Source: Lachnospiraceae bacterium UBA7026
GTDB lineage: Bacteria; Bacillota; Clostridia; Lachnospirales; Lachnospiraceae
Direction of reading: 5' to 3'
Assembly: GCA_002494165.1 (NCBI GenBank)
Contig: DLBH01000018.1
Coordinates: 1-26,580, forward strand
DNA: 26,580 nt
Shown: positions 6,139 through 25,570 of the stretch, one piece after another
Position numbering within the stretch: position 1 is the first letter of the stretch
Layout of the letters: each line of letters starts with the position of its first letter
Notes under the pieces: generated by a model
Database searches by the model: none
Seen by the model: only the letters and a program-made list of their open reading frames with translations
Told to the model about the DNA's origin: nothing
Position numbers and translations under genes: made by a program

Positions 6139-6167
6139 TTGACACCCGGGACCGGGACCAGTAGTAT
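6139..6167 (+). promoter_or_regulatory. Main promoter of the GTPase/kinase/SEDS locus, with candidate operator
   Basis: A perfect TTGACA (6139-6144) and TAGTAT (6162-6167, 4 of 6) are separated by 17 bp. The spacer contains GGGACC twice in tandem (6148-6153, 6154-6159). The second copy plus the next A is mirrored by TGGTCCC at 6201-6207, an inverted pair flanking the expected start of transcription. It is the only strong promoter seen before the first gene at 6294. Confidence 0.65.
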
Positions 6168-6224
6168 CATAAGCATAAGCACAGGGGCCTGTATGACCGG
6201 TGGTCCCAGTCTGTAAGACATAAG

Positions 6225-6263
6225 GCCGGAATGCCGGGAAGGTAAAGCCGGAATGCCGGGAAG
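6225..6263. repeat. 17-bp direct repeat in the leader of the main locus
   Basis: GCCGGAATGCCGGGAAG occurs at 6225-6241 and again at 6247-6263 with no mismatch, offset by 22 bp. Each copy contains a GCCGG/CCGG pair that could form a small hairpin. It lies between promoter and first start codon, so it is in the mRNA leader. Confidence 0.7.
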
Positions 6264-6293
6264 CAGCGAAGCTGAAAGCAGAGGAGTATTCTG

Positions 6294-6869
6294 ATGGGAT
6301 GGATGATTATGACACAGGTCAGCCTGGCGGCAGCCAGCCTGCTGACCTTATATGGATATATTTATTATGTGATCAGTCAGTCCCGCGGGATGAGGTCCAG
6401 CCACCTGTACGGCCAGGCCCTCCAGCTTGCCGGTGAGGAGCGCAGGGAGCGGGAGAGAGTCCATCGCCAGAAGATGGAGGAAGAAAGGATTCAGAGCCGG
6501 AGGGTTTTCAGGATGGATCTTCTGATCACCCACGGGGCGGCCTTCGGCGGCTGCTCGGCTGTTCTCAATGATGGCAGGTTCAGAAAGGGCAGTCTTCCTC
6601 TGGACCGGATACTCATGTTTGGAAGACATCCCTCCGGCAAGGACTTCACTTATTTTATAGAAGACCAGGACATTCTTTTCTGTGCCACAGACTATCCGGA
6701 TGAGATTCTGATCCGGTCGGCCAAGGCCCCCTTTGAAATCAGGGAGGCCGGCCTGGGCAGGGACCAGGGTGCCATCCTTTATGAGGCAGTGCTGCGGAAG
6801 GATATTCTTTACTATATTATCCTGGAATCCAAGCATGAGATTTCAGTGAGGGCATTTATGGGGATGTGA
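6294..6869 (+). CDS. Unknown membrane-anchored coiled-coil protein
   Basis: 191 residues; no family recognised. Residues about 5-27 form one transmembrane helix, residues 40-72 are a charged helix likely to form a coiled coil (rich in Arg, Glu, Gln), and residues 73-191 form a mixed alpha/beta domain. A short cytoplasmic-side linker is implied by the basic residues after the helix. GAGGAG (6281-6286) lies seven bases before ATG, fixing the start. It is the first gene of the long operon, and its layout (one helix, charged stalk, soluble domain) resembles that of the FHA protein at 11885. By position it may anchor or recruit the GTPase encoded next, which begins within a few bases of its stop. 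Confidence 0.7.
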   Translation: MGWMIMTQVSLAAASLLTLYGYIYYVISQSRGMRSSHLYGQALQLAGEERRERERVHRQKMEEERIQSRRVFRMDLLITHGAAFGGCSAVLNDGRFRKGSLPLDRILMFGRHPSGKDFTYFIEDQDILFCATDYPDEILIRSAKAPFEIREAGLGRDQGAILYEAVLRKDILYYIILESKHEISVRAFMGM

Positions 6870-6880
6870 CGGAGGCTTTG

Positions 6881-8311
6881 ATGCAGGAGACAAAAATTCG
6901 TAATATTAAAAGAAAATGTCCATATTGCTTCCGGGAAGTCTCCAACAGCCAGGTAGGATTTCTACTGAAGACTGAGGGGGCCCGTTTCCAGTCGCCGGCC
7001 CTCAATGAGTTCGCTGCGGTCAGGCCCGACCTTCCCTACATCTATTTCTGGAATGCCATGGGGGTGCCGGAGGACCGCATAGACGGGCGGAGGTGTATTA
7101 TTGACAACCAGGCCCTGACAGTCCTCAACCAGGAGCTCAGTTCCTCTGGGGCTGATCTGGCCAGAAAGCAGTATGACGAGGCCAGCTGCGGCTATACCTT
7201 CCTTGTCGAGGAGGGAGCCGTCACCCTCTTTTCCAACACCATGGTCTGCCCCTATTGTCACAATGAACTGCCCCAGAATTTTTTCCGCTATGAGATGCTC
7301 ATGGTGGGACTGGCAGGCAGTGTGGCCTCCGGGAAGACCGTTTATCTGTGCTCTCTCATGATGAATGATTACGATGTCATGCAGCGGGATAATCTGACCG
7401 TGAGGAGCGCCGCCGGCAATCCATCCGACCCGGAGCGGCTGGAGATGGAAAAAAATGCGGACAGGCTTTTTGTGGATGGTATATGTCCGGCAGGCACAAG
7501 CAAGATTTTCCGTAAACCGGTTTTTATGGAATTGAATTACCGGCTGCCTGACTCATCCATATTCCTGCTGGTCGCCGTCTATGATGTGGCCGGCGAGTTG
7601 ATCAGGGAGAGTACGGGCATGGGCCGGACGGGTTTTGTCCGTCATATGGATGGCTTTATCTGTCTGGTGGACCCGGCCCAGATGCATCTCAATCATGCCC
7701 TGTTCAGCAGGCAGATGCCTGATGAAGACCAGGTGCTCCGCCGGCTCCATCTGATGACCCTCGAGGAGCAGATGTCCATCCAGAGGCTGAGCAATGAGAA
7801 CGAAAAACAGGTTTTTGGAGGATCGGATTATCTGCTGGAGCAGACGTCCAGGGATGAATTTTTTTATGAACGTAAGATTGATACAGTTCTCGATGCCCTC
7901 AGGTCCACCCTGGGGGAGAAGCTGCTGTCAGAGAAATATATAGCCCTGACCATAGGGAAAAGCGACCTGCTGGAAGGTCTGGGAGAAATCCTGGAATACA
8001 AGGGCAGCAGCCTGCTATTTGAAAGAGGCCAGGTGGCCTGCGGTTTCATGGATATGGACAGACATTTCCTGAGACAGCAGGTTTTGCGCAAGATTTTTGA
8101 CCAGAAAGTATTCCGGCTTCAGAGAAAGCTTAACGATTATAAGGCTGCCAGTCTCTTTGCAGTCTCGGCCCTGGGTTGTGAGACAGAGGAGCAGACTTCC
8201 GGAGACCAGCAGCTTATACGGGCCGTAGGCAAAGTGCGGCCGATCCGGGTTGAGGAGCCCTTCATGTGGATCCTCATGAAGTACATGCAGGAAAGAGGGT
8301 GGCTTCAATGA
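6881..8311 (+). CDS. Zinc-ribbon TRAFAC-type GTPase (DO-GTPase-like)
   Basis: 476-residue predicted GTPase. Two CPYC motifs, C13-C16 and C123-C126, probably form one zinc ribbon split by an inserted domain. The P-loop is GSVASGKT (146-153), the G3 motif is D235-V-A-G238, a G4-like GKSD is at 359-362 and a G5-like S-A-L-G near 429-432. The layout matches the double-zinc-ribbon GTPases I recall as DO-GTPases in predicted conflict systems, where they pair with GAP1 proteins; the next gene fits that partner. A GTG at 6866 overlaps the previous stop, but GGAGG (6871-6875) is placed for ATG 6881, which is chosen. There is no membrane segment, so recruitment to the membrane would need a neighbour. 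Whether it hydrolyses GTP or another NTP is unproven. Confidence 0.75.
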   Translation: MQETKIRNIKRKCPYCFREVSNSQVGFLLKTEGARFQSPALNEFAAVRPDLPYIYFWNAMGVPEDRIDGRRCIIDNQALTVLNQELSSSGADLARKQYDEASCGYTFLVEEGAVTLFSNTMVCPYCHNELPQNFFRYEMLMVGLAGSVASGKTVYLCSLMMNDYDVMQRDNLTVRSAAGNPSDPERLEMEKNADRLFVDGICPAGTSKIFRKPVFMELNYRLPDSSIFLLVAVYDVAGELIRESTGMGRTGFVRHMDGFICLVDPAQMHLNHALFSRQMPDEDQVLRRLHLMTLEEQMSIQRLSNENEKQVFGGSDYLLEQTSRDEFFYERKIDTVLDALRSTLGEKLLSEKYIALTIGKSDLLEGLGEILEYKGSSLLFERGQVACGFMDMDRHFLRQQVLRKIFDQKVFRLQRKLNDYKAASLFAVSALGCETEEQTSGDQQLIRAVGKVRPIRVEEPFMWILMKYMQERGWLQ

Positions 8312-10335
8312 GAGAAGCACAGACATACCAGTTCGACTGCCATGAGTATACCTGGTCCGACCAGGGTATAGGAGGCAGTCCGGTAGGCTGGGGGATCAAG
8401 GCTTCTTCCAGAACCGGTGACCGGGACCTGCTGAACCGGCTCGAGAAGCTGGCAGCTTCTGCCTGTGTGGACAGCAGGGGAAGGGTCCCCGTTGAGGAGT
8501 TAATGTACGAGGGGAGCCTTGGTTTTGTCAAAATGGTTTCAGAGCCGGCCCGGCCGGGGAAAGACCATAGGAAAAATGTCCGGGTAAGACTGTACCATTG
8601 CCTGGACAAAGAGTGTGGACCGGAAGTTTACCTGGCACCCCACAGCCAGTGGCCCCATTCTCTGGGAAAGGGTCTGGCTCCCCTGGAAGTAAAGCCTCTG
8701 GGACTTGGCCGGGAGGAGCTTCTTGGCAGATACCAGCTGCAGGGCCGGTCCCTGGCTGATTTCCTCGATCTGGTATTTTCCTGTATCGGCCAGAACAAAG
8801 CCGGGTGTTTTGCCGTCAGGGGCTGGGAGGAAGACCAATATGGGATCCGGGGAGCGGAGCTTATGCTGGCAGTCCACCTGCTCCTGCCCAGGAAGGCCAG
8901 ACAGTATGCCGGCTACCTGTCCTTTTCCAGGACAGGCAGGGACAATGTCCCCTTCTACTTCAGGCCGGCGGGAAAGACGGATGAGGGCCTGGAACGGGCC
9001 TTTTTCCTGCCTGGCAGCCGGGAAGGCGGAGAAGGAAGGACCGCCCCGGCCGGTGCTGGCCGGTCATTTACTTCCGGAGAGGGGGACTGGGACAGTCCCT
9101 GGCGGTACATGTGTTTCCATCTGGCGGAATTGCTTGACCACCATGAGGATGAGGCCTACGATCGTTTTATCAGTCTGGTCGATGAAAAAATGACCGATGA
9201 CAGGATGGAGTCCTCTGCCGATTTCATGGCTGCCCTGCCATGGATTTTCTATGAGTATTTTTGCAAAGAGGGAGGAGACCGGCTGCCGGATGAGATTCTG
9301 ATCCATGCGGTACCCCAGCTGTGTTACTGGAAGGCAGGCGGTCTTATTGATGCCTCTCTGCTGCAATTTGTCATGGGCCAGGTGAGGGGGCTGCGGCTGT
9401 CCCTGGTGGAATTACGCGGATATTTTAAAGACCTGACCGGCGGGATGACCAGCCGGACCCGGGAGGATATGCTGCCGGAGATGACCAGGGTTATGGACAT
9501 GATCAAGGCCCTGGATCCCGGTGCAGGCCAACAGGAACTTAAGGAGCTGCAGAAGGGCCATAAGGAGATTTACAGAGCCCTGACAGACCCGGCCGGGGAA
9601 GAACAGAGTTCTGCTTCTGTGGAGGACCATCCCTGGATTCTGGCCCTGGAGAGGCCAGGGCGGCCTGACCTGGCTGCAAGTGAAAGGAAGGACCAAAGTC
9701 AGACAGGACCGGCCGGAAGGCCTTTGGATGAGGACCGGCGCGGAAGGGAAGATTTGGGGGCCGGGAAAGAAAAGAGTTTTGAAAAAACGGGAGTCAGTGA
9801 AATGGACGAAAGGAAAGAAGAGGCCGGGGCCGGCAGGACCATGGCGGAGACCGGAAAAGAGGAGCAGATGACCGGGAGAACAGATCCGGAGGAAAGGCCG
9901 GCTATGGAGAAGGCAGGAAAAGGGGCCAGTTTAGTGGCTGTGACCAGGAGTCTCAGCAAAGAGGAGACAGACCAGGAGGCGGAACATTATCTGACCTTTC
10001 TGCTGGGCAGCCTGCCCCAGGGCTTTCTGACAGCCTGTATGATGTTTCTCTCCCTCTACTCCATCAAGATCGGTCATTGGAAGATCGCCCTCGGTATGGC
10101 GGGAGTATGGACCATCCTTATGGCGAATTACCAGCGGGAACTTCTGGAGAAGAACCAGACCTTCCCTGTCTGGATGGTCCTTGGTCTTAATCTGGTGGAA
10201 GGATTTGTCGTCTCCCAGGCGGCCTGGTTGCTGCCCTCCCAGAAAATCCGCCTTTTCTTTTTCCTGTTTATGGGTATAATGACACTGCTGTCACAGCTGA
10301 TTACGATCTTCCGGATCGTCAGAAAGGATAGATAA
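8308..10335 (+). CDS. GAP1-like GTPase partner with C-terminal membrane domain
   Basis: 675 residues. The N-terminal region opens Q-T-Y-Q-F-D-C and shows a pattern like the GAP1 N-terminal domain that accompanies zinc-ribbon GTPases; residues to about 430 are a large globular region. Residues about 440-555 are a Glu/Lys/Gly-rich linker of low complexity. Four hydrophobic helices follow at about 571-590, 591-608, 620-642 and 647-670, so the protein should present its globular part at the membrane. The start is set by the ATGA overlap with the GTPase stop and an AGAGGG site ahead; an earlier in-frame ATG at 8266 lies inside the GTPase gene and is rejected. Coupled translation implies matched amounts with the GTPase. 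The GAP1 name is from pattern and gene order, not a search, and any GAP activity is inferred from the family name only. Confidence 0.65.
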   Translation: MREAQTYQFDCHEYTWSDQGIGGSPVGWGIKASSRTGDRDLLNRLEKLAASACVDSRGRVPVEELMYEGSLGFVKMVSEPARPGKDHRKNVRVRLYHCLDKECGPEVYLAPHSQWPHSLGKGLAPLEVKPLGLGREELLGRYQLQGRSLADFLDLVFSCIGQNKAGCFAVRGWEEDQYGIRGAELMLAVHLLLPRKARQYAGYLSFSRTGRDNVPFYFRPAGKTDEGLERAFFLPGSREGGEGRTAPAGAGRSFTSGEGDWDSPWRYMCFHLAELLDHHEDEAYDRFISLVDEKMTDDRMESSADFMAALPWIFYEYFCKEGGDRLPDEILIHAVPQLCYWKAGGLIDASLLQFVMGQVRGLRLSLVELRGYFKDLTGGMTSRTREDMLPEMTRVMDMIKALDPGAGQQELKELQKGHKEIYRALTDPAGEEQSSASVEDHPWILALERPGRPDLAASERKDQSQTGPAGRPLDEDRRGREDLGAGKEKSFEKTGVSEMDERKEEAGAGRTMAETGKEEQMTGRTDPEERPAMEKAGKGASLVAVTRSLSKEETDQEAEHYLTFLLGSLPQGFLTACMMFLSLYSIKIGHWKIALGMAGVWTILMANYQRELLEKNQTFPVWMVLGLNLVEGFVVSQAAWLLPSQKIRLFFFLFMGIMTLLSQLITIFRIVRKDR

Positions 10336-10338
10336 GTA

Positions 10339-11895
10339 ATGATTTGGAATAATTCAGAAGATTTTCTCGGACAGATTGAAGAAGCCCTGGCCAGGGGGCA
10401 GAAGAACAAGATTCCTTTTGCCCGTTTTCTTGAAGAGAAAATGGATGTATTTGATTACAGTAATACGGCTCTGGCTAAAAAAGTATATCACAGGTCTGAG
10501 AAACGGAAAGACCAGGGCAATCCCTACCAGCCTGTGACAAGGCAGGCCATAGGGACCTGGCTGCGGGGGGCCCTGCCCTCCTCCAGGGATATCTATGTCA
10601 CCCTGGGTCTGGCCTTTCAGATGTCCCTCGAGGAGATCAACCATGTCCTCCTGGAGACCTATATGGGCTATGGGCTCTACTGCAAAAATATCGATGATGC
10701 CCTCTGGATTGCCCTCATTAACGGCCTTTTTGACATTTCCCGCATGGACCAGATCCGGGGTCAGGTGGAGCAGATCCTTGCGGAGGAGTCTGAGGATGAG
10801 GCCAGAAGTCTGGCCACTACAGACCTCTGGATTCTGCTGTCAGAGGCGGGCAGCCTGGAAGATTTCTTCCAGCTGATCCGGTCCTACCGGGAGGAATTCC
10901 GGGCAGGCAACCGCCAGTTCGGCCAGTGCCTGGCTGAGGTGATCGAGGAGGAATATGGTTATTATGACAAGGCATCCTGGTTTCTCCGGGATATCGGACT
11001 GGGTCATTATGAGGCCCAGTTCTCCAAGATCAAGGCCGGCAAGGCGGTGGTGACCAGAGACTGGCTGCTACGTTTTATGATAGCCCTCCAGCCCTCCTAT
11101 GAGTCTATTGAGAAGCTGCTGGCCAAGGCCCAGATGGAGCCTCTTGGCATAACGCCCGCAGAGGTCATCATAGAGATGGTGGCCAAATACAAGTCTGACT
11201 CGGCGGCCAACAGCCAGCAGATCTGGCAGATGATCGAGTCAGCTGCCGGCAGCCTGCGGAAAAAGGGCTATGAGATGGATGAGGATATCTGCAGGAAATA
11301 CCATGCGGCCTATGAGCTTTCCGTCAGTCAGAAACGCTGGTTTTCCCTCTGCCTGGGAGCCCAGCTCCGGGCCTGCCGCAAGGACCATGATTACGGCTAT
11401 GAAAAACATGGTTACTGCAGGTATACGGTGGTAGACCGGGTGCTCTTTGAGGAAGTGAACCGGTGTAAAAAGAGTATATCCTTCCGCAACAACGCGGTGG
11501 CCTGCAGCCAGCAGGTGACCGGCCTGGCAGATATTCCTGCCTTTGATTCCCTGCCCATACTCTGCGTTGATAAAAACAAGGAGGCTGACGCCTTAGAGCT
11601 GGAGAAGTTTGAGGATTACTGTTTTGAGAGAAAACCGGGAAGACTATCCAATAATTTCCAGTTCAATGATGTGTATTTTTACAGCACCCTGCTTTTTTCC
11701 CTGTGGACGGGCCATTGCTTTATCAGGGATAAATGGGAGGATATGCTGGACCAGATGAAGGAGGAGCTGGACAGACAGGGCCTTACCGGCGACCTGTTTA
11801 TGGATCAGCTGGTCAAGGTCTGGAACGAGGAAGAGAAAAAACAAGTTACCTTAACAGATCTTATGAATGGGGTGATTTCACTGCATGGCTGTTGA
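10339..11895 (+). CDS. XRE-type helix-turn-helix protein with long helical region
   Basis: 518 residues. Residues about 34-92 resemble an XRE/lambda-repressor helix-turn-helix: SNTALAKKV, a short insert, then TRQAIGTWLRGALPSSRD and the LGLAFQMSLEEINHVLL turn. The rest is mostly helical with no recognised domain, no membrane segment and several aromatic-rich stretches near the C terminus. It starts four bases after the GAP1-like gene, with an AAAGGA about 11 bases ahead. In this position it could be the locus's own regulator binding the repeats near 6148-6207, or the HTH could be a structural part of a protein partner. The central region is the least understood part of the locus. Confidence 0.6.
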   Translation: MIWNNSEDFLGQIEEALARGQKNKIPFARFLEEKMDVFDYSNTALAKKVYHRSEKRKDQGNPYQPVTRQAIGTWLRGALPSSRDIYVTLGLAFQMSLEEINHVLLETYMGYGLYCKNIDDALWIALINGLFDISRMDQIRGQVEQILAEESEDEARSLATTDLWILLSEAGSLEDFFQLIRSYREEFRAGNRQFGQCLAEVIEEEYGYYDKASWFLRDIGLGHYEAQFSKIKAGKAVVTRDWLLRFMIALQPSYESIEKLLAKAQMEPLGITPAEVIIEMVAKYKSDSAANSQQIWQMIESAAGSLRKKGYEMDEDICRKYHAAYELSVSQKRWFSLCLGAQLRACRKDHDYGYEKHGYCRYTVVDRVLFEEVNRCKKSISFRNNAVACSQQVTGLADIPAFDSLPILCVDKNKEADALELEKFEDYCFERKPGRLSNNFQFNDVYFYSTLLFSLWTGHCFIRDKWEDMLDQMKEELDRQGLTGDLFMDQLVKVWNEEEKKQVTLTDLMNGVISLHGC

Positions 11896-12556
11896 ATGGA
11901 TGACCCTGCTTTCGGCGGCGGCCGTGATTCTTCTGATTGCTTTTATCATCTTTATTCTCTTCCGGGCCAATAATGACCTGGCAAGAGCCCAGGAGGAGGG
12001 AGAGCATTTCGTCGATGAATGGGCCGAGCGGGAAGAGAAACTGGAAGAAAAGCGGCGCTTGAGAAAGGCCCGGGAAGAAGAACTTAAGAAAATGGAAGAA
12101 GCCCGGCAGGAGCAGGCAGCTTTTGAAGCTGACTACCGGGGCCGGGGGAAGAAAGAAGGGGATGGCAGGCAAAAGCAGCCTGGCCCGGTCCGGGACCAAA
12201 AGGCAGATCCCGGCAGCCAGAAGCAGCCCCGCCGGTTCCCGGACCAGAAAGAGTCCCGGCCCGCTTTGCTTTTGCTGGAGCTCGATGAAAACAAGCGGAT
12301 TCTCAGACGCATCCCCGTAGACCATATTCCCTTCCGCATTGGCAGGAGCAATGATAATGACCTGGTTCTTGATGACCTGTGTGTTTCCAGAAAGCATGTG
12401 TCCATAGAAAGATCCGGGGACAGGTATGTGGCTGTGGACCTGGGAACCAAGAATAAGATATTTTCCGGCGGTAAGCTGCATGACCAGCTGCCCCTGGAGG
12501 CAGGAGTGCGTTTTTTCATTGGAAACATAGAAATGCTGGTGGAGATGAAAAGATGA
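11885..12556 (+). CDS. Membrane-anchored FHA-domain protein
   Basis: 223 residues. A single transmembrane helix (about 6-27) is followed by a highly charged coiled coil (30-80), a Gln/Pro/Lys-rich linker (85-125) and a C-terminal FHA domain (130-220), which binds phosphothreonine. FHA signatures are visible: FRIGRSNDNDL (150-160) and SRKHVS (168-173); Arg152/Arg154, Ser168 and His171 fit the phosphopeptide pocket. The usual GS-NG-T turn reads G-T-K-N at 187-190. It overlaps the HTH gene by 11 bp and has a GGGGTGAT-type ribosome binding site. With a kinase and PP2C in the same locus it is the natural reader of their phosphorylation, next to the SEDS gene that follows by an ATGA overlap. Confidence 0.85.
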   Translation: MAVEWMTLLSAAAVILLIAFIIFILFRANNDLARAQEEGEHFVDEWAEREEKLEEKRRLRKAREEELKKMEEARQEQAAFEADYRGRGKKEGDGRQKQPGPVRDQKADPGSQKQPRRFPDQKESRPALLLLELDENKRILRRIPVDHIPFRIGRSNDNDLVLDDLCVSRKHVSIERSGDRYVAVDLGTKNKIFSGGKLHDQLPLEAGVRFFIGNIEMLVEMKR

Positions 12557-13938
12557 GGGAAAAACAAGAACATACTATTAGCATGACCCGGATCCGGTGG
12601 GAGATACACAGAGCCTTTTATTCCTTCTGGACCGGACCTCTTATGGCTGTGATCCTGATGCAGATCGCAGCCCTCCTTTTTATGGGGGCAAAGGGAGCTG
12701 GCAGGATTTATCTGAATCTGCTGCCCCTGCTTTTGCTCATCAGTCTGGCCGGCTGGCTCTTTACCTCAGTTGCCCACGGCAACAGGAAGGTCCTGGTCTA
12801 CAGTCTGATTCTGCTGACGGTGGGAACCATGCTCCAGTGTATCTTCATTGAGGAACTGGTAATCAGAACCGGGACCAGGGATCCGGCCCGGACTGGTATA
12901 GCCTCCCTGGAACTGCAGTATCTGGTCAGTCTGGCTGCGGCCCTGGCTGCAGGTATTGTTTATTTTTGCACAGACTTCATTGCCAGGAAGAAGACGGCTG
13001 TCCTGATGGCAGCCCTTGCCGTGGGCCTGTCTCTCCTGACTCTGGTCTTTTCAGAAGGGGTAGGCGGCGTGAAGAACTGGATCAGCCTGGCAGGGATTTC
13101 CCTGCAGACAACGGAAATCAGCAAATTATTATATATACCGGTCTGTGCCTATATCCTTGGCCGGGACCGGGAGACGGACAGGAGGACCCTGGCCTTCTTT
13201 TACGGCTATACTTTTCTGTCCCTGCTGCTGCTGGCGGTTCAGGGGGAGTTTGGGACCCTGCTCCTTTTGCTGCTGGTCTTTTTGTCCCTCCACCTCCTGT
13301 TTGTGTCAGACCTTTCCTGGCTGCTGGGGGTGGTTCTTGCCCTGACGGCAGGGGGAGGCATACTGGCTGCCATAGGAAGAAAGCTGACCCAGATGCAGCT
13401 GGATGGATCCGGAGCCAGGACAGGAGCCCTGGTCCGCTTTTATCTGGATGCCTATTCAAAGATAAGTAACCGTTTTATCTACTGGCTCAATCCGGAAAAG
13501 GACCCGGCCGGGCTGGGCTACCAGCTGCTCAAGGCCAAGGAGTCTATTTTGCTGGGTGGTTTTTTCGGCACTTCCTCTGTGACGGACCTGCCTGTAAAAA
13601 GCAGTGACCTGGTCTATCCGGCCCTGATTGAGCGCTGCGGTCTGGTTTTTGCCCTCTTGATTTTCATCGTCTTTAATCTCCTCTGGTTAGAGGAGATGAA
13701 GGTATTTATCAGAAAAAAGCAGAGATACCATCAGATTATCGCTGCCGGCTTCGGAACCCTGGTCTTCTACCAGGCCCTAATCATCATTGCCGGCAGCACC
13801 GGTCTCTGTCCTTTGACCGGAATTACTCTTCCTTTCATATCCAGCGGAGGAAGCTCCCTTCTGGTATGCTTTATCATGACGGCTTTGATTATTGCCGTCT
13901 CGGGTAATATCCCCTGGAAAGGCGGGATGGAAGAATGA
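12553..13938 (+). CDS. SEDS-family peptidoglycan glycosyltransferase (FtsW/RodA/SpoVE)
   Basis: 461-residue polytopic membrane protein with about ten helices. SEDS hallmarks are present: GVKNWISLAGISLQTTEISK near residues 164-184 (family G-x-x-R-W-I...Q-P-S-E-x-x-K), SSDLVYPALIERCGLV near 352-367 with the aspartate at the expected catalytic-loop position, and GITLPFISSGGSSLL near 424-438. SEDS proteins polymerise lipid II glycan strands with a partner class B PBP, and the next gene is such a PBP, joined by an ATGA overlap. It lies downstream of the FHA gene, also by ATGA. It is probably a specialised second copy, since the main division and elongation SEDS genes are usually in other clusters; which one it resembles most cannot be told here. 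Confidence 0.88.
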   Translation: MREKQEHTISMTRIRWEIHRAFYSFWTGPLMAVILMQIAALLFMGAKGAGRIYLNLLPLLLLISLAGWLFTSVAHGNRKVLVYSLILLTVGTMLQCIFIEELVIRTGTRDPARTGIASLELQYLVSLAAALAAGIVYFCTDFIARKKTAVLMAALAVGLSLLTLVFSEGVGGVKNWISLAGISLQTTEISKLLYIPVCAYILGRDRETDRRTLAFFYGYTFLSLLLLAVQGEFGTLLLLLLVFLSLHLLFVSDLSWLLGVVLALTAGGGILAAIGRKLTQMQLDGSGARTGALVRFYLDAYSKISNRFIYWLNPEKDPAGLGYQLLKAKESILLGGFFGTSSVTDLPVKSSDLVYPALIERCGLVFALLIFIVFNLLWLEEMKVFIRKKQRYHQIIAAGFGTLVFYQALIIIAGSTGLCPLTGITLPFISSGGSSLLVCFIMTALIIAVSGNIPWKGGMEE

Positions 13939-15302
13939 AGAAAATGTCATTACTTAAAAGGGCCCAGCTGCTGCAGAGCATTTCCCTGGTTTGTGTCATT
14001 TTAATGATTGTAAGCCTGGTCCGGATTTCTGCGGTCCTGCCTGGGGTGTCAAAGGAAGCAGACCAGAAAAAGAAAGCTGCCAGGAATGCCTCCTATGAAA
14101 AGGAATACGTAAGAGGGAGTATCCTGGACCGGAATGGGAATGTCCTGGCTTTCTCAGATAAAGCAGGAGGGACCAGGACTTATACGGCTCCCCGGTCCTT
14201 TGCCGGGGTCATAGGTTACTGGTCCAAAATCTACGGGACTTATGGCCTGGAGGATACTTTTAATGATGAACTGGTTCACAGTTCCTCTCTGACGGAGAAT
14301 AAGAGGGGGACTGATATCAGTCTGACTCTTGATCTGGACCTTCAGAAAAAGGCTTACAAGGCCATCAGGAAAATGGAAGCCAGCCTGGTGGTCCTGGACG
14401 TCAAAACCGGGCAGATCCTTGCCCTGGCTTCATCCCCGTCCTACGATGCCGGCAGGCTGGAAGAGGACTGGGATATAATAAATGCCACGGAAGGAGCCCT
14501 CCTGGCCAACGCCTACAAGAATCCGGTTGTGCCGGGATCGGTCTTTAAGCTGGTTACCTCCACAGAGATCCTGGAGGCGGGCATAGAGGATGAGGAGGTG
14601 GATGACCAGGGATCCTACAAGGTCAATGGCCAGACCATACGGAATTATAACGGCAAGGCCTACGGCCGGATCTCCTTTGAGGATGCTTTTATCAAGTCCT
14701 CCAATGTCTACTTTATGGACCGGGCAGTCAAGCTGGGGGGAGAGAGCCTGGAAGCTACGGCAAAGCGCTTTCTGCTGGGTCAGGATATCCCGCTTGATTT
14801 CACGATGCTCCGGTCTTCCTTCAGTCTGGGAAGCGGAGAGGACAATGTTCTGGCTTCCACGGCTTTCGGCCAGGGGGAGACCATGCTTACTCCTCTTCAT
14901 ATGGCCATGATCACCCAGAGTGTGGCTAATGACGGAGAGATGCTTGAGCCTTATATGATTTTGAAAAAAACAAATGGAAAGGGAAAGGATACCTACACAG
15001 GCCAGACCCGGCTTCTGGGCCGGACCATGAGCGAGATGATAGCCTACCGGCTGAAAGATGTAATGACAAAGGCCGGGGAGGCCTATGAATTATCGCTGAT
15101 TGGTGAGAAAGAGTACCGGATTGCGGCCAAGACCGGGACTGCCCAGCGGGGTGACGGGACCAACAATGCCTGGATGGTCAGTTTCGCCCCGGCAGATGAC
15201 CCCAGATATGTGGTGGTGGCCTGCCGGCTGAAAACGGATAAGATTGGCAAAAGTATGGCACCTGTCATAGAGGAACTCTATTCCTGGCTGTTGAGGCAGT
15301 GA
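13935..15302 (+). CDS. Small class B penicillin-binding protein (transpeptidase)
   Basis: 455 residues. A signal-anchor helix (about 14-36) is followed by a short pedestal and a transpeptidase domain with all three active-site motifs: S202-V-F-K205, S255-S-N257 and K399-T-G401. The R-G-S-I-L-D-R-N-G motif (60-68) marks the class B N-terminal module. There are no PASTA domains. At about 455 residues it is close to the short mycobacterial PbpA type. It should crosslink glycan made by the SEDS protein encoded just upstream, with which it is translationally coupled. Its 3' end overlaps the convergent kinase-like gene by 25 bp, and the plus-strand run breaks here until 16120. Confidence 0.9.
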   Translation: MKKMSLLKRAQLLQSISLVCVILMIVSLVRISAVLPGVSKEADQKKKAARNASYEKEYVRGSILDRNGNVLAFSDKAGGTRTYTAPRSFAGVIGYWSKIYGTYGLEDTFNDELVHSSSLTENKRGTDISLTLDLDLQKKAYKAIRKMEASLVVLDVKTGQILALASSPSYDAGRLEEDWDIINATEGALLANAYKNPVVPGSVFKLVTSTEILEAGIEDEEVDDQGSYKVNGQTIRNYNGKAYGRISFEDAFIKSSNVYFMDRAVKLGGESLEATAKRFLLGQDIPLDFTMLRSSFSLGSGEDNVLASTAFGQGETMLTPLHMAMITQSVANDGEMLEPYMILKKTNGKGKDTYTGQTRLLGRTMSEMIAYRLKDVMTKAGEAYELSLIGEKEYRIAAKTGTAQRGDGTNNAWMVSFAPADDPRYVVVACRLKTDKIGKSMAPVIEELYSWLLRQ

Positions 15303-16003
15303 CCAATCTGGCAGATATAGTCCTGGAGAGACAGGGAGGGAGAAGGATTCTTTCCTGTCTCGTAGAGGGGCAGCACGGAAGAAGGCATCCGGCTGTCCTT
15401 TTTTTCGTCCCCCCTGGCCCTGATCATATCCTCAAAGAGACAGGCCAGCTCCTGGACCAGAAGCTGCTGGCCCTTAAGATCAGGAGACAGATCGTAGGAA
15501 AAACAAAGAGAGTAGGAGGGATTGGGGTTCCGCAGGAAGTAATAGCTGCAGGTGTAGTCCACCAGATAGAGCCGGCTGCCCTTTTCCTGAGAGTCCAGAA
15601 GAAGGTTGGTCAGGTTCAGGTCCGTGTAGACCAGGCCTTCCCCGAGCAGGAAGGAAAGAAGCCGGCCGGTTTCCATTAAGATACGGAGCATAAGCCGGTT
15701 GGACATATGGGGGACCAGGTCCTTTAAGGGGAATCCGGGACACTCTTCCATGCAGAGGACAGACCAGAGCTGGTCCGAGTCCCCGATGACACAGTTGTCC
15801 CAGTGACCAAAATAAGCCGGGACAGAAGGATGTTCCACCAAAGACATGGTCTCAAACTCGTCCCGGAAGGCTTCCACCATGTCTTTCCGGGACATGGAGC
15901 AGCATTTCCATATGCAGTTGTTCTTATGGCCGGGAGCCCGGTAGATCCGCAGGTCTTTCTTGCGGCGCAGCAGGCTTTCTGCCGTCAGTTCTTGTAAAAA
16001 CAT
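15278..16003 (-). CDS. Minimal protein-kinase-like protein on the opposite strand
   Basis: 241 residues, shorter than normal kinases. A reduced N lobe has Lys33 (I-W-K-C-C) and a Glu at 48 or 51 in the following helix. The catalytic loop reads Y126-T-D128-L-N-L-T-N133 in place of HRD...N, and the metal motif reads V-D149-Y-T instead of DFG. No Gly-rich loop and no APE motif are visible. Key Lys, Asp, Asn and Asp are kept, so it may be active, or it may be a lipopolysaccharide- or choline-kinase-like relative. The start follows GAGG on the minus strand by five bases. The gene is convergent with the PBP (25 bp overlap) and divergent from the PP2C gene, with its own promoter. It could give independent control over the kinase half of the locus. 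Confidence 0.7.
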   Translation of the reverse strand: MFLQELTAESLLRRKKDLRIYRAPGHKNNCIWKCCSMSRKDMVEAFRDEFETMSLVEHPSVPAYFGHWDNCVIGDSDQLWSVLCMEECPGFPLKDLVPHMSNRLMLRILMETGRLLSFLLGEGLVYTDLNLTNLLLDSQEKGSRLYLVDYTCSYYFLRNPNPSYSLCFSYDLSPDLKGQQLLVQELACLFEDMIRARGDEKKDSRMPSSVLPLYETGKNPSPSLSLQDYICQIGHCLNSQE

Positions 16004-16036
16004 GAAAACCTCGTCAGTAGATTTTTTATGTGAATC

Positions 16037-16065
16037 AGTGTATCATATGGGTAATTAATTTGCAA
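16037..16065 (-). promoter_or_regulatory. Promoter of the kinase-like gene
   Basis: On the minus strand TTGCAA (16065-16060) and TACACT (16042-16037) are 17 bp apart, each matching 4 of 6 consensus bases, about 34 bp before the start codon. No equally good plus-strand promoter was found for the PP2C gene. Confidence 0.45.
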
Positions 16066-16084
16066 CCGGGGCGGGAAGCCCCGG
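16066..16084. promoter_or_regulatory. GC-only hairpin between the divergent genes
   Basis: CCGGGGC (16066-16072) and GCCCCGG (16078-16084) form a 7-bp GC stem with a GGGAA loop. No U-run follows on either strand, so it is not a simple terminator. It sits beside the minus-strand -35 box and in the leader of the PP2C gene, so an operator or a leader structure are both possible. Confidence 0.4.
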
Positions 16085-16119
16085 GAGCAGGATGATCCTT
16101 ACCTGGAGGTGCGGAAATT

Positions 16120-17088
16120 ATGACATGTTATATGTTGAGCGATATCAACAGACGATCCGAGAACCAGGACTACTGCCGGCAGATGGAGATCCGGGTCAAC
16201 TATGATTCCACAGTCAGGGCCATGGCTGTGGCAGACGGTATGGGCGGCATGGCCGGCGGCGCTTTCTTCTCAGAGCTGGCCGTCAGATTATGGTTTGAGA
16301 AGCTCTACCGGAGGGTGACAGACCCGGATTTCTGCGGCAAGGCTCTGGATACCCAGATTGAACTTTTAAAGGATTTTTCCGGCCAGGTCTATGAAGAGCT
16401 GGAGCCGGAGATTTATAAGGCAGGACTTGACCGGGGCTACCGTGGAGGGACAACCCTGTCCACGGTCATATCTTTCTGGGATATCTTTATCTTCAGTAAT
16501 TGCGGGGACAGTCCCATCTATGTAGGAGAGGGCAGGAGAATCAGCCTGGTCAGTGAGGTGCAGAATGTGGCTGAGAGCCTGATCCGTTCCGGCAAGACGG
16601 AAAAGGGCTCCATCCTTTATTACCAGACTAAAAACAGGATTTTATCCTACCTGGGGGGAAGGAATGGATGCAGCCCTTCCGTTTCCTTTTTACCTGACAA
16701 GAAGGTGGACTGGGTTCTGATGGGATCTGACGGGGCTTTTTCTGACCTGGACAGGGAGGAGATCCGTAAGGCGGCCAGTGAGGGAAAAGAATCCCGCAGG
16801 CTGCTCCAGCTCTTTCATAAAGCCAGAGAGCGGGGAGAAGAGGATAACCAGACCGCCATCCTCTATGTCCGGGAAAAGAATGACCGGCCGGTCCGGGATG
16901 TGTCTGCGGAAAGACTTTACCGCGAGACCAATGAAGAGAATATGATCCGGGAGGCTAAAGACAAGGAGCCGGAAGAACTGCAGGGTCTGGAGGATGACTG
17001 TGCCTATGTGAAGCTGGAGCAGGCTTCTGTGCTGAGGCGTTTCCGCTCCAAACTGCAAAGGGGCAGGGGACGGACCAAAGGGGAGTAA
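16120..17088 (+). CDS. PP2C-family Ser/Thr protein phosphatase
   Basis: 322-residue soluble phosphatase. The metal-dependent PP2C motifs are all visible in order: RSENQD (12-17), VADGMGG (37-43), GYRGGTTL (106-113), NCGDS (127-131), SDG (203-205) and EDNQT (241-245). The aspartates that bind Mn/Mg are Asp39, Asp204 and Asp242. The last 70 residues are a charged tail outside the domain. A GGAGGT (16105-16110) precedes ATG by nine bases. The Ser/Thr kinase gene begins four bases after its stop, so the pair likely act on the same targets, including the FHA partner. The domain is complete, so activity is expected. Confidence 0.93.
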   Translation: MTCYMLSDINRRSENQDYCRQMEIRVNYDSTVRAMAVADGMGGMAGGAFFSELAVRLWFEKLYRRVTDPDFCGKALDTQIELLKDFSGQVYEELEPEIYKAGLDRGYRGGTTLSTVISFWDIFIFSNCGDSPIYVGEGRRISLVSEVQNVAESLIRSGKTEKGSILYYQTKNRILSYLGGRNGCSPSVSFLPDKKVDWVLMGSDGAFSDLDREEIRKAASEGKESRRLLQLFHKARERGEEDNQTAILYVREKNDRPVRDVSAERLYRETNEENMIREAKDKEPEELQGLEDDCAYVKLEQASVLRRFRSKLQRGRGRTKGE

Positions 17089-17091
17089 ACT

Positions 17092-18318
17092 ATGTATCAG
17101 TATTTTAAGGAAGGGGATTTTCTCACCTGGAAGGGAGAAGGAGACTTCCCTGGGGAGGGCCTGGTCCTGAAGATGGTCAGGGAGAATTACCGTTCGGGAA
17201 CCAAGCAGGCCATGGTAGCTGAGGATATCCGGACCGGAAGAAGGTATTTTCTCAAGATTCTCTTCTGCGAGGACATGGACCGGCTTTTCGTGGAAAAGGA
17301 GAGTAAGGTTCAGCTTTATTCCCCTTATATCGTCAGGATATACGGAGGTATGCTGGATGTGGAAGGCCGCCGTTTTATTACCCTGGTGGAATATATTGAT
17401 GTCCCTGATCTCTCGGATCTGATGAGGCGGAGAGAGACCACCGGGGAGACCTGGCAGGAGAAACTGAGGATCTGTGACCGGATCGCCATGAAGTTTCTCT
17501 ACGGTATCCGTCATTATATGTCCTGCTATGAGAACGATCCCATTATTCACAGGGATTTAAAACCAGAGAATGTTATGGCGGCCCGGGATGGGTCTGTCGT
17601 AAAAATCATAGATTTTGACTGGGTTCACCTCCATGATTCCGTGCTGACCTGCAATCTGCGCAGGGAGCAGAAGGGGACGCCGGGCTATGCGGACCCGGGC
17701 TACTGGAATTCCTATGTATGCCGGCCGGAGATGGATATCTATTCTGCGGGCCTGGTCCTTTATTTTATTTATACAGGCAAGCACCATTTCTTTGGAGCAG
17801 AGGAGATCAACCGCTATATGGAGGACCCGGACTATGCCTACACCCTCAAGGATATGCCGGGTATTGATCCGGCCCTGACAGGAATCCTGGCCAAAATGAT
17901 TGCCCCTGAGCAGGACCGTTACCACAGTATCGAGCCGGTTATAAGGGACATGGAGACTTACCTGGAACAGGAAGGCCGTCTGCCTGATTTTCCGGAGCAG
18001 CTGGAATCAGAGTCCCAGAGGGACACCATCCGTCTGACTTACAGGGTGGGGGATATCAAGTACAGTCCCTATATCCGCAACTATCGTTTTGTCCCTATTT
18101 ATTACGGAACCAGGCAGGAAAGAAGTAAGAACGGGCCCTACAGCGGCCATATTCTGTCCTTTTACCGGGTGGATGACCAGGTAAGGGTTCTTCTGCTCCA
18201 TGAAGACTGCAGGGCTGTCAGCCTGCAGAGGGACAGCCAGGTCACGGAAGGGGATAAATTTCTTTATCATGACACAGAGATAGAAGTACTGCAGATCAGG
18301 GGGAGGGACAGGAGATAA
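17092..18318 (+). CDS. Soluble Ser/Thr protein kinase with DFD motif and C-terminal domain
   Basis: 408 residues. Kinase motifs: Lys55 (Y-F-L-K-I-L), Glu68/70 in the following helix, H153-R-D155-L-K-P-E-N160, D174-F-D176 in place of DFG, G-T-P-G-Y at 195-199 with an APE-like D-P-G-Y, and Asp215. The DFD change puts Asp where Gly usually sits and occurs in some active kinases of this bacterial group, so activity is likely but unproven. There is no transmembrane helix or PASTA domain, unlike PrkC/PknB. Residues about 310-405 form a beta-rich C-terminal domain of unknown type. It directly follows the PP2C gene and its stop overlaps the vWA start (TAATG), the arrangement of TerY-type phosphorylation triads. 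Confidence 0.88.
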   Translation: MYQYFKEGDFLTWKGEGDFPGEGLVLKMVRENYRSGTKQAMVAEDIRTGRRYFLKILFCEDMDRLFVEKESKVQLYSPYIVRIYGGMLDVEGRRFITLVEYIDVPDLSDLMRRRETTGETWQEKLRICDRIAMKFLYGIRHYMSCYENDPIIHRDLKPENVMAARDGSVVKIIDFDWVHLHDSVLTCNLRREQKGTPGYADPGYWNSYVCRPEMDIYSAGLVLYFIYTGKHHFFGAEEINRYMEDPDYAYTLKDMPGIDPALTGILAKMIAPEQDRYHSIEPVIRDMETYLEQEGRLPDFPEQLESESQRDTIRLTYRVGDIKYSPYIRNYRFVPIYYGTRQERSKNGPYSGHILSFYRVDDQVRVLLLHEDCRAVSLQRDSQVTEGDKFLYHDTEIEVLQIRGRDRR

Positions 18319-19016
18319 TGAACAGCTATAACAGTCAGGGGACCGATTATAATCCGTCTCTGCCCGGAAGACTGCGGGAGAAGATGGAAAGCGAGAAGAA
18401 GCAGGGACTCAAGCTTTACCTGGACTTTGTCATCGATGGCACTGCCTCCATGTACACCATATTCCCTGCCGTCTATTTTGCAATCATGCATTTTATAGAA
18501 AGCCTGGCCCGCTATGAGATTCACCCCATGCTGGGCGCTACCGTCATCCGGGACGAGAAGGGAGGAGAGGAGACGGACCAGTTGCTTTTTGCTGACGGGG
18601 AGTCCTTTACAGAGGATGTGACCGAGTTCATGCAGCAGGTCAGGGCCATCAAGCTCTACGGTGGTTCCAATGACGGCCGGGAGTCTGTCCACCATGCCAT
18701 AGCCTTGTCTGTGGCCAAGTTCCCTTCCCCGGGCAGGAATAAGGCAGTCTTTGTATTTTCTGATGCCTACGGCAGCAATGATTACGAAGAGTATCTGGAC
18801 TTTCCTTTAGGCCAAGCTGTGTTCTTTACTACTGATGAGCTGAGCCAGGAGGATTTCCGCTTTTGTTTCGTCAGGGAAGACGGGGGCTATGACGAAGAAG
18901 CGTCCCCCATGTTTATTTCCATTGAAAAACTGCTGCAGCCGGTCAGTACAGACCTTTTGGATAATGTTGTCAAACCTTTGAAGGATCTTCTGAAGGGAGT
19001 GTCCATAGGAATATGA
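18318..19016 (+). CDS. vWA-domain protein (TerY-like)
   Basis: 232-residue soluble von Willebrand factor A-type protein. The metal-ion-dependent adhesion site is readable: D40-G-T-A-S44 (the DxSxS-type motif with Thr at the second place), a GGSNDGRES segment at 115-123 for the second site, and F-S-D149 for the third. Vertebrate-like vWA domains of this kind act in bacteria as scaffold or chaperone partners of kinases and AAA ATPases. Start is by TAATG overlap with the kinase stop, with AGGAG just ahead. Kinase, PP2C and vWA together match the TerY-P triad described by Anantharaman, Iyer and Aravind, although no tellurite-resistance genes are nearby. Confidence 0.88.
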   Translation: MNSYNSQGTDYNPSLPGRLREKMESEKKQGLKLYLDFVIDGTASMYTIFPAVYFAIMHFIESLARYEIHPMLGATVIRDEKGGEETDQLLFADGESFTEDVTEFMQQVRAIKLYGGSNDGRESVHHAIALSVAKFPSPGRNKAVFVFSDAYGSNDYEEYLDFPLGQAVFFTTDELSQEDFRFCFVREDGGYDEEASPMFISIEKLLQPVSTDLLDNVVKPLKDLLKGVSIGI

Positions 19017-20212
19017 TGGAGAGAATTGATACACAGGGACAGACACCCGCAAGCAAGGAGGAGCTCTTTGCCTCCTCCCATCCGGTCATAAAGATGCTCC
19101 GGGAGCTTCCCCAGGTCATTTTTCCGGGAGATGAGGGCCGGCTGCCAGACCAGGCCTGTTCCCTCAAGTGCCTTTTTGGCAGGGAGATGATGGACCATTA
19201 CCACGTGGACAGGCGGCGGCTTTATGCCATGGCTCTGTCCGTGGCTACCCTCCTGGAGGGTTTTCGCCAGAGAAATATCTATCCCGGCCTGCTGGACCTG
19301 GAGGACCTGATGACCGACCCGGCCAGCCAGGATTCCCCGGTATATCTGGTCCGCCCAAACCGTTTCCAGCTGCTCTTTTTTGAGCAGGATTATGAGTGGT
19401 ACCCTGAAGATGAGAGGCTTCTGGGAGACGGGCTTTTTTTTGATGAGGCCAGGCAGCTGCTCTCTGATCAGCGACTGATCTACCGGATTCTCATCGGCTC
19501 CTGCAGAGGGAATATCAAGGTTCCTCCGGCCAAGGCAGATGTGGATTACGCCCATGTCTTTTACCAGCAGCTGCCGGACCGGTGGAAGGAAAAGCTGGAG
19601 CATCATGAGGTCTGGACCCACCTGCAGATCATTGATGAACTGAAAAAACAGCTGATGCTGGACCAGGCGGAGGCTTCAGCCAAAGCCGGCCCCGGGCCGG
19701 TGGAGGAAAAGTTAGAGAGCCGGCCTTCTGGTAATAAGGGACCGCTCTACTGCAGCTTTGTTCTTCTGCGCACCCAGCTCCACCGCCCCTTAGGTCTGGA
19801 AAAGATATTTTACCAGCAGCTGGAGGAACTGGAAAATGAGGGAGAGATGACTGGCAGAAGCATAGTGTTCTCTTTTGTTTACGGTGACCAGGTTGTGGAG
19901 GCCAGAAACTTCAGGGAGTACCCGGCTGGTTTCCGTTTTGAACTGGCTCAGGACATCAGGGATTACTCTTTTGGCGAAGCCCTGGTCATTGCCAGGGATC
20001 TTATGGCGGACCATATGGCCAGACAGCAGGACCATAAGGGAGACTACCGGCTCTATATTTTGCTGGATGGAAGATTTAAGAATGATCAGATTTTAAAGAA
20101 AATGGTGGACGATTTTCTGAAGATGAAGAAAGAGGGCCTCAGGATCTTCCTGCTGGAGAGCGGGGAGTGCTACTGTGAGGCGAAGGAGCAGTTATGCCGT
20201 TTGCTGGATTGA
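19013..20212 (+). CDS. Unknown protein: pseudokinase-like half plus degenerate vWA-like half
   Basis: 399 residues; no family recognised with certainty. Residues about 68-205 follow the order of a kinase C lobe: a long helix RRLYAMALSVATLLEGF, then R-N-I-Y-P-G-L-L-D-L-E-D-L where HxDLxPxN would be, then V-Y-L-V-R-P-N-R in place of a DFG strand. Catalytic Asp and Asn are absent. A linker (217-243) leads to residues 245-395, whose strands and helices follow a vWA Rossmann fold: F-V-L-L-R-T first, F-G-E-A-L-V-I-A helix, then Y-I-L-L-D-G-R-F-K-N-D with Asp352 kept but no DxSxS. So both halves look like dead copies of the two proteins encoded just upstream. Start overlaps the vWA stop (ATGA). This reading is inference. 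Confidence 0.55.
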   Translation: MMERIDTQGQTPASKEELFASSHPVIKMLRELPQVIFPGDEGRLPDQACSLKCLFGREMMDHYHVDRRRLYAMALSVATLLEGFRQRNIYPGLLDLEDLMTDPASQDSPVYLVRPNRFQLLFFEQDYEWYPEDERLLGDGLFFDEARQLLSDQRLIYRILIGSCRGNIKVPPAKADVDYAHVFYQQLPDRWKEKLEHHEVWTHLQIIDELKKQLMLDQAEASAKAGPGPVEEKLESRPSGNKGPLYCSFVLLRTQLHRPLGLEKIFYQQLEELENEGEMTGRSIVFSFVYGDQVVEARNFREYPAGFRFELAQDIRDYSFGEALVIARDLMADHMARQQDHKGDYRLYILLDGRFKNDQILKKMVDDFLKMKKEGLRIFLLESGECYCEAKEQLCRLLD

Positions 20213-20649
20213 GAAAATTACATGAGAGGACCATGGAGGCCTACCGGCAGAACCAGGAGGAGAATATGGAGCCCTGGAAGAGGAAGGTCATGGATATCCA
20301 TGAACAGGCGGACTTTTTATTCTATCTGGAGGAAGGGCTGGAGGAGGACCGGCAGGAGAGAAAGCTCTTGCTCCGGGGCCAACTGGTCAAGGGAGACCCG
20401 GAGCCGGGGACCAGGATCTATTTCTTTACCGGCCAAGGAGACCTGATGGGCAGCGGTCTTCTGTGCAGCCGGCCCGAAGAGAAGGAAGCCGAAAGAAAAG
20501 GCCTGTTTAAACGAAGGAGAAATGAGATGATTATTCAATTAGTCACTTATCTTGATATGGAGGCAGAATCCATGGATAACCTTGAATTATCTAGGTCTTT
20601 TAACAATATTCTCCTGGATGCATCCCTGATTACAGACCGTTTATTTTGA
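20194..20649 (+). CDS. Small unknown protein with a beta-barrel-like core
   Basis: 151 residues, no signal or membrane helix. Residues 1-55 are helical and charged. Residues about 57-91 (K-L-L-L-R-G-Q-L-V-K-G-D-P-E-P-G...) resemble domain 2 of translation-factor GTPases, a small beta barrel, and residues 100-151 return to helix. The resemblance is short and may be chance. AAGGAG five bases before ATG 20194 decides the start, giving a 19-bp overlap with the previous gene. It is the last gene of the locus; no clear terminator follows, and the next gene has its own promoter. Confidence 0.6.
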   Translation: MPFAGLRKLHERTMEAYRQNQEENMEPWKRKVMDIHEQADFLFYLEEGLEEDRQERKLLLRGQLVKGDPEPGTRIYFFTGQGDLMGSGLLCSRPEEKEAERKGLFKRRRNEMIIQLVTYLDMEAESMDNLELSRSFNNILLDASLITDRLF

Positions 20650-22062: not shown

Positions 22063-22120
22063 AATAATCGGCAAGATGATGTAATATTAAAGATTGTAGG
22101 AATAAAATAACAGGATAATG

Positions 22121-22166
22121 ACACTAAGGATAAAAGATATTATTTTATTCTTAGTGTTTTTATTTT
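22121..22166 (+). terminator. Strong intrinsic terminator after the aminotransferase gene
   Basis: ACACTAAGgATAAAA (22121-22135) pairs with TTTTATtCTTAGTGT (22143-22157), 14 pairs with one mismatch, followed by a T-rich tail. It separates the aminotransferase from murF. Confidence 0.9.
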
Positions 22167-22208
22167 GCCTGCCGGATAAGATAAGCAGGTGGAGGAAAGG
22201 AAGAAGCT

Positions 22209-23585: not shown

Positions 23586-23620
23586 ATGGCTGACCAGCCG
23601 ATAGTTAACGGAGATGACAT

Positions 23621-25534: not shown

Positions 25535-25570
25535 ATAGAATTCATATTTGCAAGTGGAGTGATAGATAAT

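Follow-up and report, generated by a model that had tools for sequence, protein, structure and literature searches.

The 26,580-nucleotide stretch analysed here (contig DLBH01000018.1; hereafter the window) carries a 13-gene block, A to M, in which a GTPase and its GAP1-like partner lie together with protein phosphorylation genes and with genes for a SEDS glycosyltransferase and a class B penicillin-binding protein (PBP). The host genus is Anaerobutyricum (Lachnospiraceae), a group of gut bacteria. The question raised by the locus is whether such different genes serve a common function and, if so, which one. Our answer, given with slightly better than even confidence, is that they make up a dedicated peptidoglycan synthase that is gated by signals and controlled through GTP and phosphorylation. 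The case is built on gene content, gene order, motifs and ancestry, to which the folds predicted by structure models are added. The genes, with positions in the window, are:

6294..6869, plus strand: A, 191 amino acids (aa), hydrophobic N-terminus (seen by eye, under the threshold of transmembrane (TM) prediction) and conserved soluble domain
6866..8311, plus strand: B, DO-GTPase with zinc-ribbon cysteines (CPYC...CPYCH), Walker A (GSVASGKT), DxxGE and KSD motifs
8308..10335, plus strand: C, divergent GAP1-N2-type protein (profile-profile comparison) with a hydrophobic C-terminal segment
10339..11895, plus strand: D, predicted helix-turn-helix (HTH) domain (~24-113) and probable degenerate kinase C-lobe (~319-518), from models
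11885..12556, plus strand: E, N-terminal TM helix (TM prediction) and FHA domain (Pfam)
12553..13938, plus strand: F, SEDS glycosyltransferase of the FtsW/RodA/SpoVE family (Pfam, motifs, tree)
13935..15302, plus strand: G, class B PBP with PbpA-type dimerisation domain and SxxK, SSN and KTGT motifs (Pfam, motifs, tree)
15278..16003, minus strand: H, small antisense kinase-like protein with catalytic Lys, Asp, Asn and DFG Asp (sub-threshold Pfam match, motifs)
16120..17088, plus strand: I, PP2C phosphatase with its motifs kept (Pfam, motifs)
17092..18318, plus strand: J, Ser/Thr kinase with HRDLKPEN and DFD (Pfam, motifs)
18318..19016, plus strand: K, vWA protein with MIDAS-like DGTAS (sub-threshold Pfam match, motif)
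19013..20212, plus strand: L, predicted pseudokinase-like domain (~10-220) and vWA-fold domain (~241-399), from models
20194..20649, plus strand: M, open reading frame (ORF) of 151 aa conserved in the genus, fold not assigned

All ORFs of the initial annotation, twelve on the plus strand (A-G and I-M) and the minus-strand H, are present, and the 11- and 19-bp overlaps that it gave are exact. The plus-strand genes are packed with spacings of -4 (A/B), -4 (B/C), +3 (C/D), -11 (D/E), -4 (E/F) and -4 bp (F/G), and then of +3 (I/J), -1 (J/K), -4 (K/L) and -19 bp (L/M). H overlaps G by 25 bp tail to tail (convergent) and diverges from I across 116 bp; antisense H splits the plus-strand genes into at least two blocks (A-G, I-M). 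The start of C is most likely at 8308, in an ATGA overlap with B, rather than at 8266, because the stretch upstream contains a stop in 7 of 15 relatives. A Pfam scan of A-M at E<=0.01 gave matches above the curated cut-offs for FHA (E), FTSW_RODA_SPOVE (F), Transpeptidase and PBP_dimer_2 (G), PP2C_2 (I) and Pkinase (J). Matches below the cut-offs were Pkinase on H (30.3 vs 31.7 bits), VWA_4 on K (24.8 vs 27 bits) and DO-GTPase2 on B (18.8 vs 27 bits, E 0.0014). A, C, D, L and M had no Pfam match at this threshold and were named neither by Pfam nor by NCBIfam or PADLOC, the PADLOC scan being run without M. A weak Pleckstrin-2 match (E 0.0034) was all that was found for M.

The order of these genes is conserved. 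Twenty Anaerobutyricum loci were fetched (the synteny set leaves out genomes G015, G020 and G023). Twelve of them (L032-L040, L042, L044, L045) are complete and keep the identical set A-M in order and strand, while the remaining eight end at contig breaks and are consistent as far as visible. All 18 loci that extend far enough upstream share the same nucleotidyltransferase gene there, in some of them with an AraC-type gene in between. Identity to the window within the genus (best segment) is 60-67% for B, 57-64% for J, 27-39% for C, 34-40% for L and 31-47% for M, C being the large protein that diverges fastest. Outside the genus, the block was found in two genomes, G092 and G1219, among the loci with a GTPase match whose context was seen. 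Their layout is (membrane protein)-B-C-D-E-F-G-H(antisense)-I-J-K-(small protein), with the ten genes B-K in the same order, although their GTPases are only 24-27% (G092) and 24% (G1219; 4e-21) identical to that of the window. Each of B-K was matched by profile in G092. The C protein of G1219 was not matched by a simple profile but occupies the C position, aligns to the genus C profile (hhalign 90.0%, E 1.6e-6) and is related to the C of G092 (BLASTP 1e-66). H is antisense in every locus seen, in the genus and in both distant genomes. This gene order is far beyond chance, because it is kept genus-wide and in two lineages outside. The initial annotation had named homologues scattered without a conserved neighbourhood as its own refutation; the neighbourhood proved conserved, and its claim of one co-inherited unit is borne out by the synteny and by the cluster-specific SEDS, PBP and GTPase clades described below. 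Since the two distant relatives keep ten genes in order, the locus looks like one regulated wall-synthesis machine.

The distribution of the GTPase is wider than that of the block. A single-sequence search with B found it in 24/24 genomes of the genus and in 0/37 others; absence figures here and below apply to the sampled genomes. The genus profile of B matched 6/391 class genomes, and a 14-row profile matched 47/392 order, 7/299 phylum and 7/358 family genomes. Contexts were seen for own genome, G092 and 16 more of the order matches (18 regions, two overlapping and one only 4.8 kb), for own genome, G818 and G861 of the phylum matches, for all class matches but G447 and for all family matches but G1271. 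Twenty order and phylum GTPase regions contained no gene D-K by profiles at E<=1e-3, and of three further regions (L066-L068) L068 had a weak kinase match (21 bits). In G1234 a class B PBP-like ORF (L155:2-2410; 125 bits to the G profile) lies some 10 kb away from a DO-GTPase gene, and the 20-kb region gave no match for SEDS. Single-sequence searches with C found 2/295 order genomes (own and G092), and a C protein search gave 6 sequences of 49-99% identity from 7993 candidates scored, missing the G092 and G1219 forms. Protein searches covered the best 120 of 187 and the best 120 of 282 matches. Among the matches listed are GTPases of 43-47% identity (P0058-P0076) whose locus contexts were not seen. 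B also matches sequences from Candidatus Anaerobutyricum stercoripullorum, Eubacterium sp. An11 and a Lachnospiraceae metagenome-assembled genome at 66, 66 and 99%.

Trees place the wall-synthesis pair of the block apart from a second such pair. In IQ-TREE analyses the cluster PBPs (6/12 rows) stand on one side of a branch with 100/100 support and the cluster SEDS (6/11 rows) with 100/99, long branches being flagged in the SEDS tree. A second SEDS-PBP pair found in G005, G092 and G1219 stands apart from the cluster pair in both trees. It lies beside U32-peptidase-like genes (L182:6765-9666; L185:7476-10207; L186:5980-8770), with a ruvB-like gene near it in G005 and G1219 (neighbour names read from sequence), and its PBP scores 237-256 bits against the G profile, other G005 PBPs scoring 91-123 bits. 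GTPases linked to SEDS and those of loci without SEDS form separate clades (100/100, 19 rows), 4 of the 10 'cluster' rows being the 43-47% identical GTPases. In the cluster SEDS and PBP trees G092 is sister to G1219 (100/100), even though G1219 belongs to the family of the window, whereas in the second-pair part of the trees G005 groups with G1219 (100/99 and 97/97). Because the cluster and second-pair trees place G092, G1219 and G005 differently, the whole block probably moved as a unit or underwent ancient duplication and loss. The ratio of nonsynonymous to synonymous substitution rates (dN/dS) was estimated by the NG86 method in five close pairs, the gene set varying by pair and several dS values being saturated and not computable. 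Wherever computable, it was 0.01-0.17 (0.01-0.02 for B, 0.02-0.03 for J, 0.10-0.12 for C and up to 0.17 for M); such low values argue for conserved function, not for an arms race. In the alignments, relatives with internal stops or X were excluded, and the longest F row was excluded from the F profile.

By its motifs B is a zinc-ribbon DO-GTPase. Walker B reads DVAGE in 11/11 genus rows and DNSGE in G092 and G1219, with the conserved Glu that defines DO-GTPases, which are of TRAFAC type. The zinc ribbon CPYC...CPxCH is present in 11/11 genus rows, the first Cys pair lacking its second Cys in the two distant GTPases. Precomputed PF19993 assignments were found on relatives of B at 59-62% (P0027, P0036, P0038, P0040) and 43-47% identity among the matches listed. 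A comparison of B with PDB gave nothing better than 0.08 (the P-loop of the LRRK2 GTPase). C is a divergent GAP1-N2-type protein. A C profile from the three lineages aligned through C residues 1-348 to three GAP1 proteins (hhalign 97.0%, E 8.5e-11), one of them tested by Pfam (GAP1-N2, 9.7e-7) and the other two named GAP1 by place and alignment. The genus-only profile gave 95.1% (E 3.2e-8) against the same proteins, and unrelated control profiles 0.12, 0.36 and 0.14%. The zinc-ribbon GTPase with a GAP1-like partner of the initial annotation thus stands on the motifs of B and on C scores of 95-97% vs controls below 1%; the relation of C to GAP1, like the HTH of D, also held, but needed profile-profile and fold work to be recognised. 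A GAP1-N2 protein identified by Pfam is encoded by a DO-GTPase locus without SEDS in G725 (L124:3690-17203), where inspection by eye also found a 380-aa degenerate-kinase-like protein (no Pfam kinase match), a membrane vWA-like protein and an FtsK-like ATPase of 1069 aa.

The wall-synthesis core announced for E, F and G has intact SEDS and PBP motifs. The Asp of the SDLVY-type motif of F, which we take to be the catalytic one, is present in 17/17 genus rows and in both distant rows, as are SxxK, SSN and KTGT of G (16/16 genus rows and both distant rows). SEDS genes number four per genome in the six Anaerobutyricum genomes counted, so that F is an additional SEDS beside three others.

The adjacent genes I, J and K form the PP2C-kinase-vWA triad that had been recognised from the start, and they are adjacent in G092 and G1219 too. 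Kinase J has the VAIK-type Lys, HRDxKPEN (13 HRDLKPEN, 1 HRDIKPEN) and DFD in 14/14 genus rows; the two distant rows have HRDLKPDN or HRDIKPEN with DFD. No glycine-rich loop was recognised in J, no PASTA match was given by Pfam for J of the window, and no TM segment was predicted in I or J in any of the three lineages. PP2C motifs of I are found in 15/15 genus rows and in both distant rows, which have DD for the last DN, and the Lys, Asp, Asn and DFG Asp of H in 16/16 genus rows and both distant rows. Overlooked at first were kinase-fold domains without catalytic motifs, which structure models place in L and, less surely, in D. In these models L is a pseudokinase domain followed by a vWA-fold domain; neither HRDxxxxN nor DFG was seen by eye in its 11-row alignment, and its sequence had no match in PDB. 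D is modelled, with less certainty, as an HTH joined to a degenerate kinase lobe devoid of catalytic motifs. Neither D nor L has predicted TM segments. A stands where G092 and G1219 have a membrane protein gene before B; homology to these proteins was considered and rejected, no relationship being detectable. The G092 gene (L065:6583-9306) codes for a protein that looks vWA-like by eye and has two hydrophobic segments. Its C-terminus shows homology to the 313-aa product of the gene preceding B in G1219 (BLASTP 2e-11). The L C-terminus matches a 180-aa G092 protein in place with only 17.9% identity, and no match was found to a 187-aa G1219 protein.

These parts suggest the following mechanism. 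The membrane protein encoded upstream of B, which is A in the window and a membrane protein with secreted vWA part in G092, would report the state of the envelope, and a GTP switch formed by B and C at the membrane would license assembly. J and I would determine whether the pseudokinases D and/or L are phosphorylated, with H possibly supplying a second input. Phosphorylated D/L scaffolds might dock on FHA protein E, switching synthesis by F and G on or off, while K and L could act as metal-dependent adaptors. The HTH of D may couple this state to transcription, perhaps from the divergent region between H and I. Some observations count against parts of this scheme. The FHA Arg of E, present in 9/10 genus rows, is lost in G092 and G1219, and Ala replaces the FHA Ser in 9/10 genus rows; this loss and replacement speak against a universal phosphothreonine-reading role of E. 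Pfam GAP1-N2 matched no C protein tested; that family gave no match in own genome and matches 7/148 class genomes.

A role in biological conflict, which the initial annotation had allowed together with a sporulation-like one, would have the GTPase-GAP1 pair sense an invader and the SEDS-PBP pair thicken or seal the wall as effector. It has a precedent in the prediction by Kaur et al. 2020, in the available part of PMC7159879, of GAP1-N2/DO-GTPase modules as membrane-near conflict systems with a kinase-PP2C-vWA theme. PADLOC models also match J (mad6, 6.8e-27, and 35 further models), H (mad6, 1.1e-6) and weakly E (LmuC, 0.016), but its kinase models may match any Ser/Thr kinase, and at E<=0.1 none matched A-D, I, K or L (F, G and M were outside the scan). 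A variable effector is absent, the 12 complete genus loci carrying the same 13 genes. This constant content and the purifying selection (dN/dS 0.01-0.17) argue against a variable-effector defence system, which we regard as quite improbable. A mobile or variable defence island is rejected at genus level in view of the GTPase in 24/24 genomes, the 12/12 gene set and the 18/18 upstream nucleotidyltransferase.

It is somewhat less improbable, though still unlikely, that F and G lay down a specialised peptidoglycan layer during dormancy or a programme resembling sporulation. F is indeed an extra SEDS beside three others, and SpoIVA is found in 7/8 host genomes, namely 5/5 near-complete Anaerobutyricum (G005, G009, G018, G021, G022), G092 and G1219, the 83%-complete own genome being without it. 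This contrasts with a 2026 review whose available part calls the genus non-spore-forming (PMC13303155). Moreover, no sporulation family is among the Pfam matches of the locus, G005 has SpoVD/FtsI-like PBPs elsewhere (named by position and sequence), and the GTPase marker is missing from 345/392 order and 351/358 family genomes sampled, counted irrespective of sporulation. The split by antisense H and the 116-bp divergent region would also fit two neighbours of unshared function, one operon with the GTPase, GAP1 and SEDS genes (A-G) and another for TerY-P-like signalling (I-M). We consider this very unlikely, because the genus, G092 and G1219 all retain both blocks and H side by side in unchanged order, even though the GTPases of the latter two are only 24-27% identical to that of the window.

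Of the single phosphorylation- and GTP-controlled membrane machine with peptidoglycan output proposed originally, the parts and their co-inheritance are supported. Co-transcription, in view of at least two plus-strand blocks and an antisense gene, and the defence and sporulation roles are not supported. The regulated peptidoglycan synthase that we favour suggests an additional wall synthase core to a butyrate-producing gut genus. It ties the DO-GTPase/GAP1 family, found in the literature searched only as computational prediction, to an enzyme pair, and the role of the GTPase pair becomes testable because the SEDS-PBP product is measurable. It also puts forward two pseudokinase-like architectures, HTH-pseudokinase and pseudokinase-vWA, as candidate regulators.

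Around the block, a promoter-like sequence (TTGACA-17-TAGTAT; 6139..6167, plus strand) lies ahead of A. It is a consensus match only, and with 20 promoter-like sites observed vs 12.5 +/- 3.8 in shuffles the evidence for this site is weak. The window opens with tRNA-Gln (CTG; 1-74), tRNA being the only Rfam match within it. Downstream (20782-26580) are genes for aspartate aminotransferase, a Mur ligase (presumably MurT-like) and gyrB/parE-type and gyrA/parC-type subunits. Downstream of the G1219 block (L153:3-3818) a 1272-aa protein appears by eye SF1-helicase-like with a transglutaminase-like N-terminal part.

The combined locus was not found described in the open-licence literature searched, but its components recall several known systems. 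The GAP1-N2 DO-GTPase systems, in the available part of Kaur et al. 2020 (eLife 9:e52696, PMC7159879), share a zinc-ribbon DxxGE DO-GTPase, a GAP1-N2-type partner directly downstream and a membrane setting. The third theme described there, with kinase, PP2C and standalone vWA, is reported as restricted to actinobacteria, and no SEDS/PBP pair is mentioned in that part. The locus studied here differs in its occurrence in Bacillota, its FHA-SEDS-PBP core, its pseudokinase-like D and L and its fixed gene set (12/12 with the same 13 genes) where those systems have highly variable effector genes. FNIII repeats, a component of those systems that evolves fast, gave no fn3 Pfam match on A-M at E<=0.01. 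With TerY-P triads the likeness is one of gene kind: I, J and K (K by a sub-threshold VWA_4 match) are neighbours that correspond in type to the three triad genes, embedded here in a wall-synthesis locus. The actinobacterial fhaA-fhaB-pstP-rodA-pbpA-pknA-pknB locus likewise links FHA, PP2C, SEDS, PbpA-type PBP and Ser/Thr kinase genes (available part of PMC6554272). Its kinase is a TM PASTA protein and its PP2C has a TM segment, whereas J and I here have no TM segment and J of the window no PASTA match; the GTPase/GAP1 pair, the HTH-pseudokinase, the vWA proteins and the antisense mini-kinase are additions. In mycobacteria the PP2C gene precedes the SEDS-PBP pair, while here it follows it. Mycobacterial MviN, whose pseudokinase domain recruits FhaA upon phosphorylation by PknB and inhibits peptidoglycan synthesis (available part of PMC12599244), similarly combines pseudokinase, FHA and Ser/Thr kinase acting on wall synthesis; here the predicted pseudokinase-like domains are in TM-less proteins, fused to HTH or vWA, and their phosphorylation is putative. 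MviN-FhaA is the closest experimental precedent and actinobacterial pstP-rodA-pbpA-pkn the closest locus. A more far-reaching proposal, which we put forward tentatively and with less than even confidence, is that this is a previously undescribed Bacillota signalling-gated peptidoglycan synthase whose private SEDS-PBP pair is under the direct control of a DO-GTPase/GAP1 switch and a kinase-pseudokinase-FHA relay. The actinobacterial wall-growth locus and the 'conflict' GTPase systems might then be branches of one envelope-control toolkit, with GTPase-GAP1 as a general membrane-assembly switch and not a device for defence only. On our best reading, the locus brings together what is published as GAP1-N2 GTPase systems and the FHA-PstP-RodA-PbpA-Pkn locus of actinobacteria.

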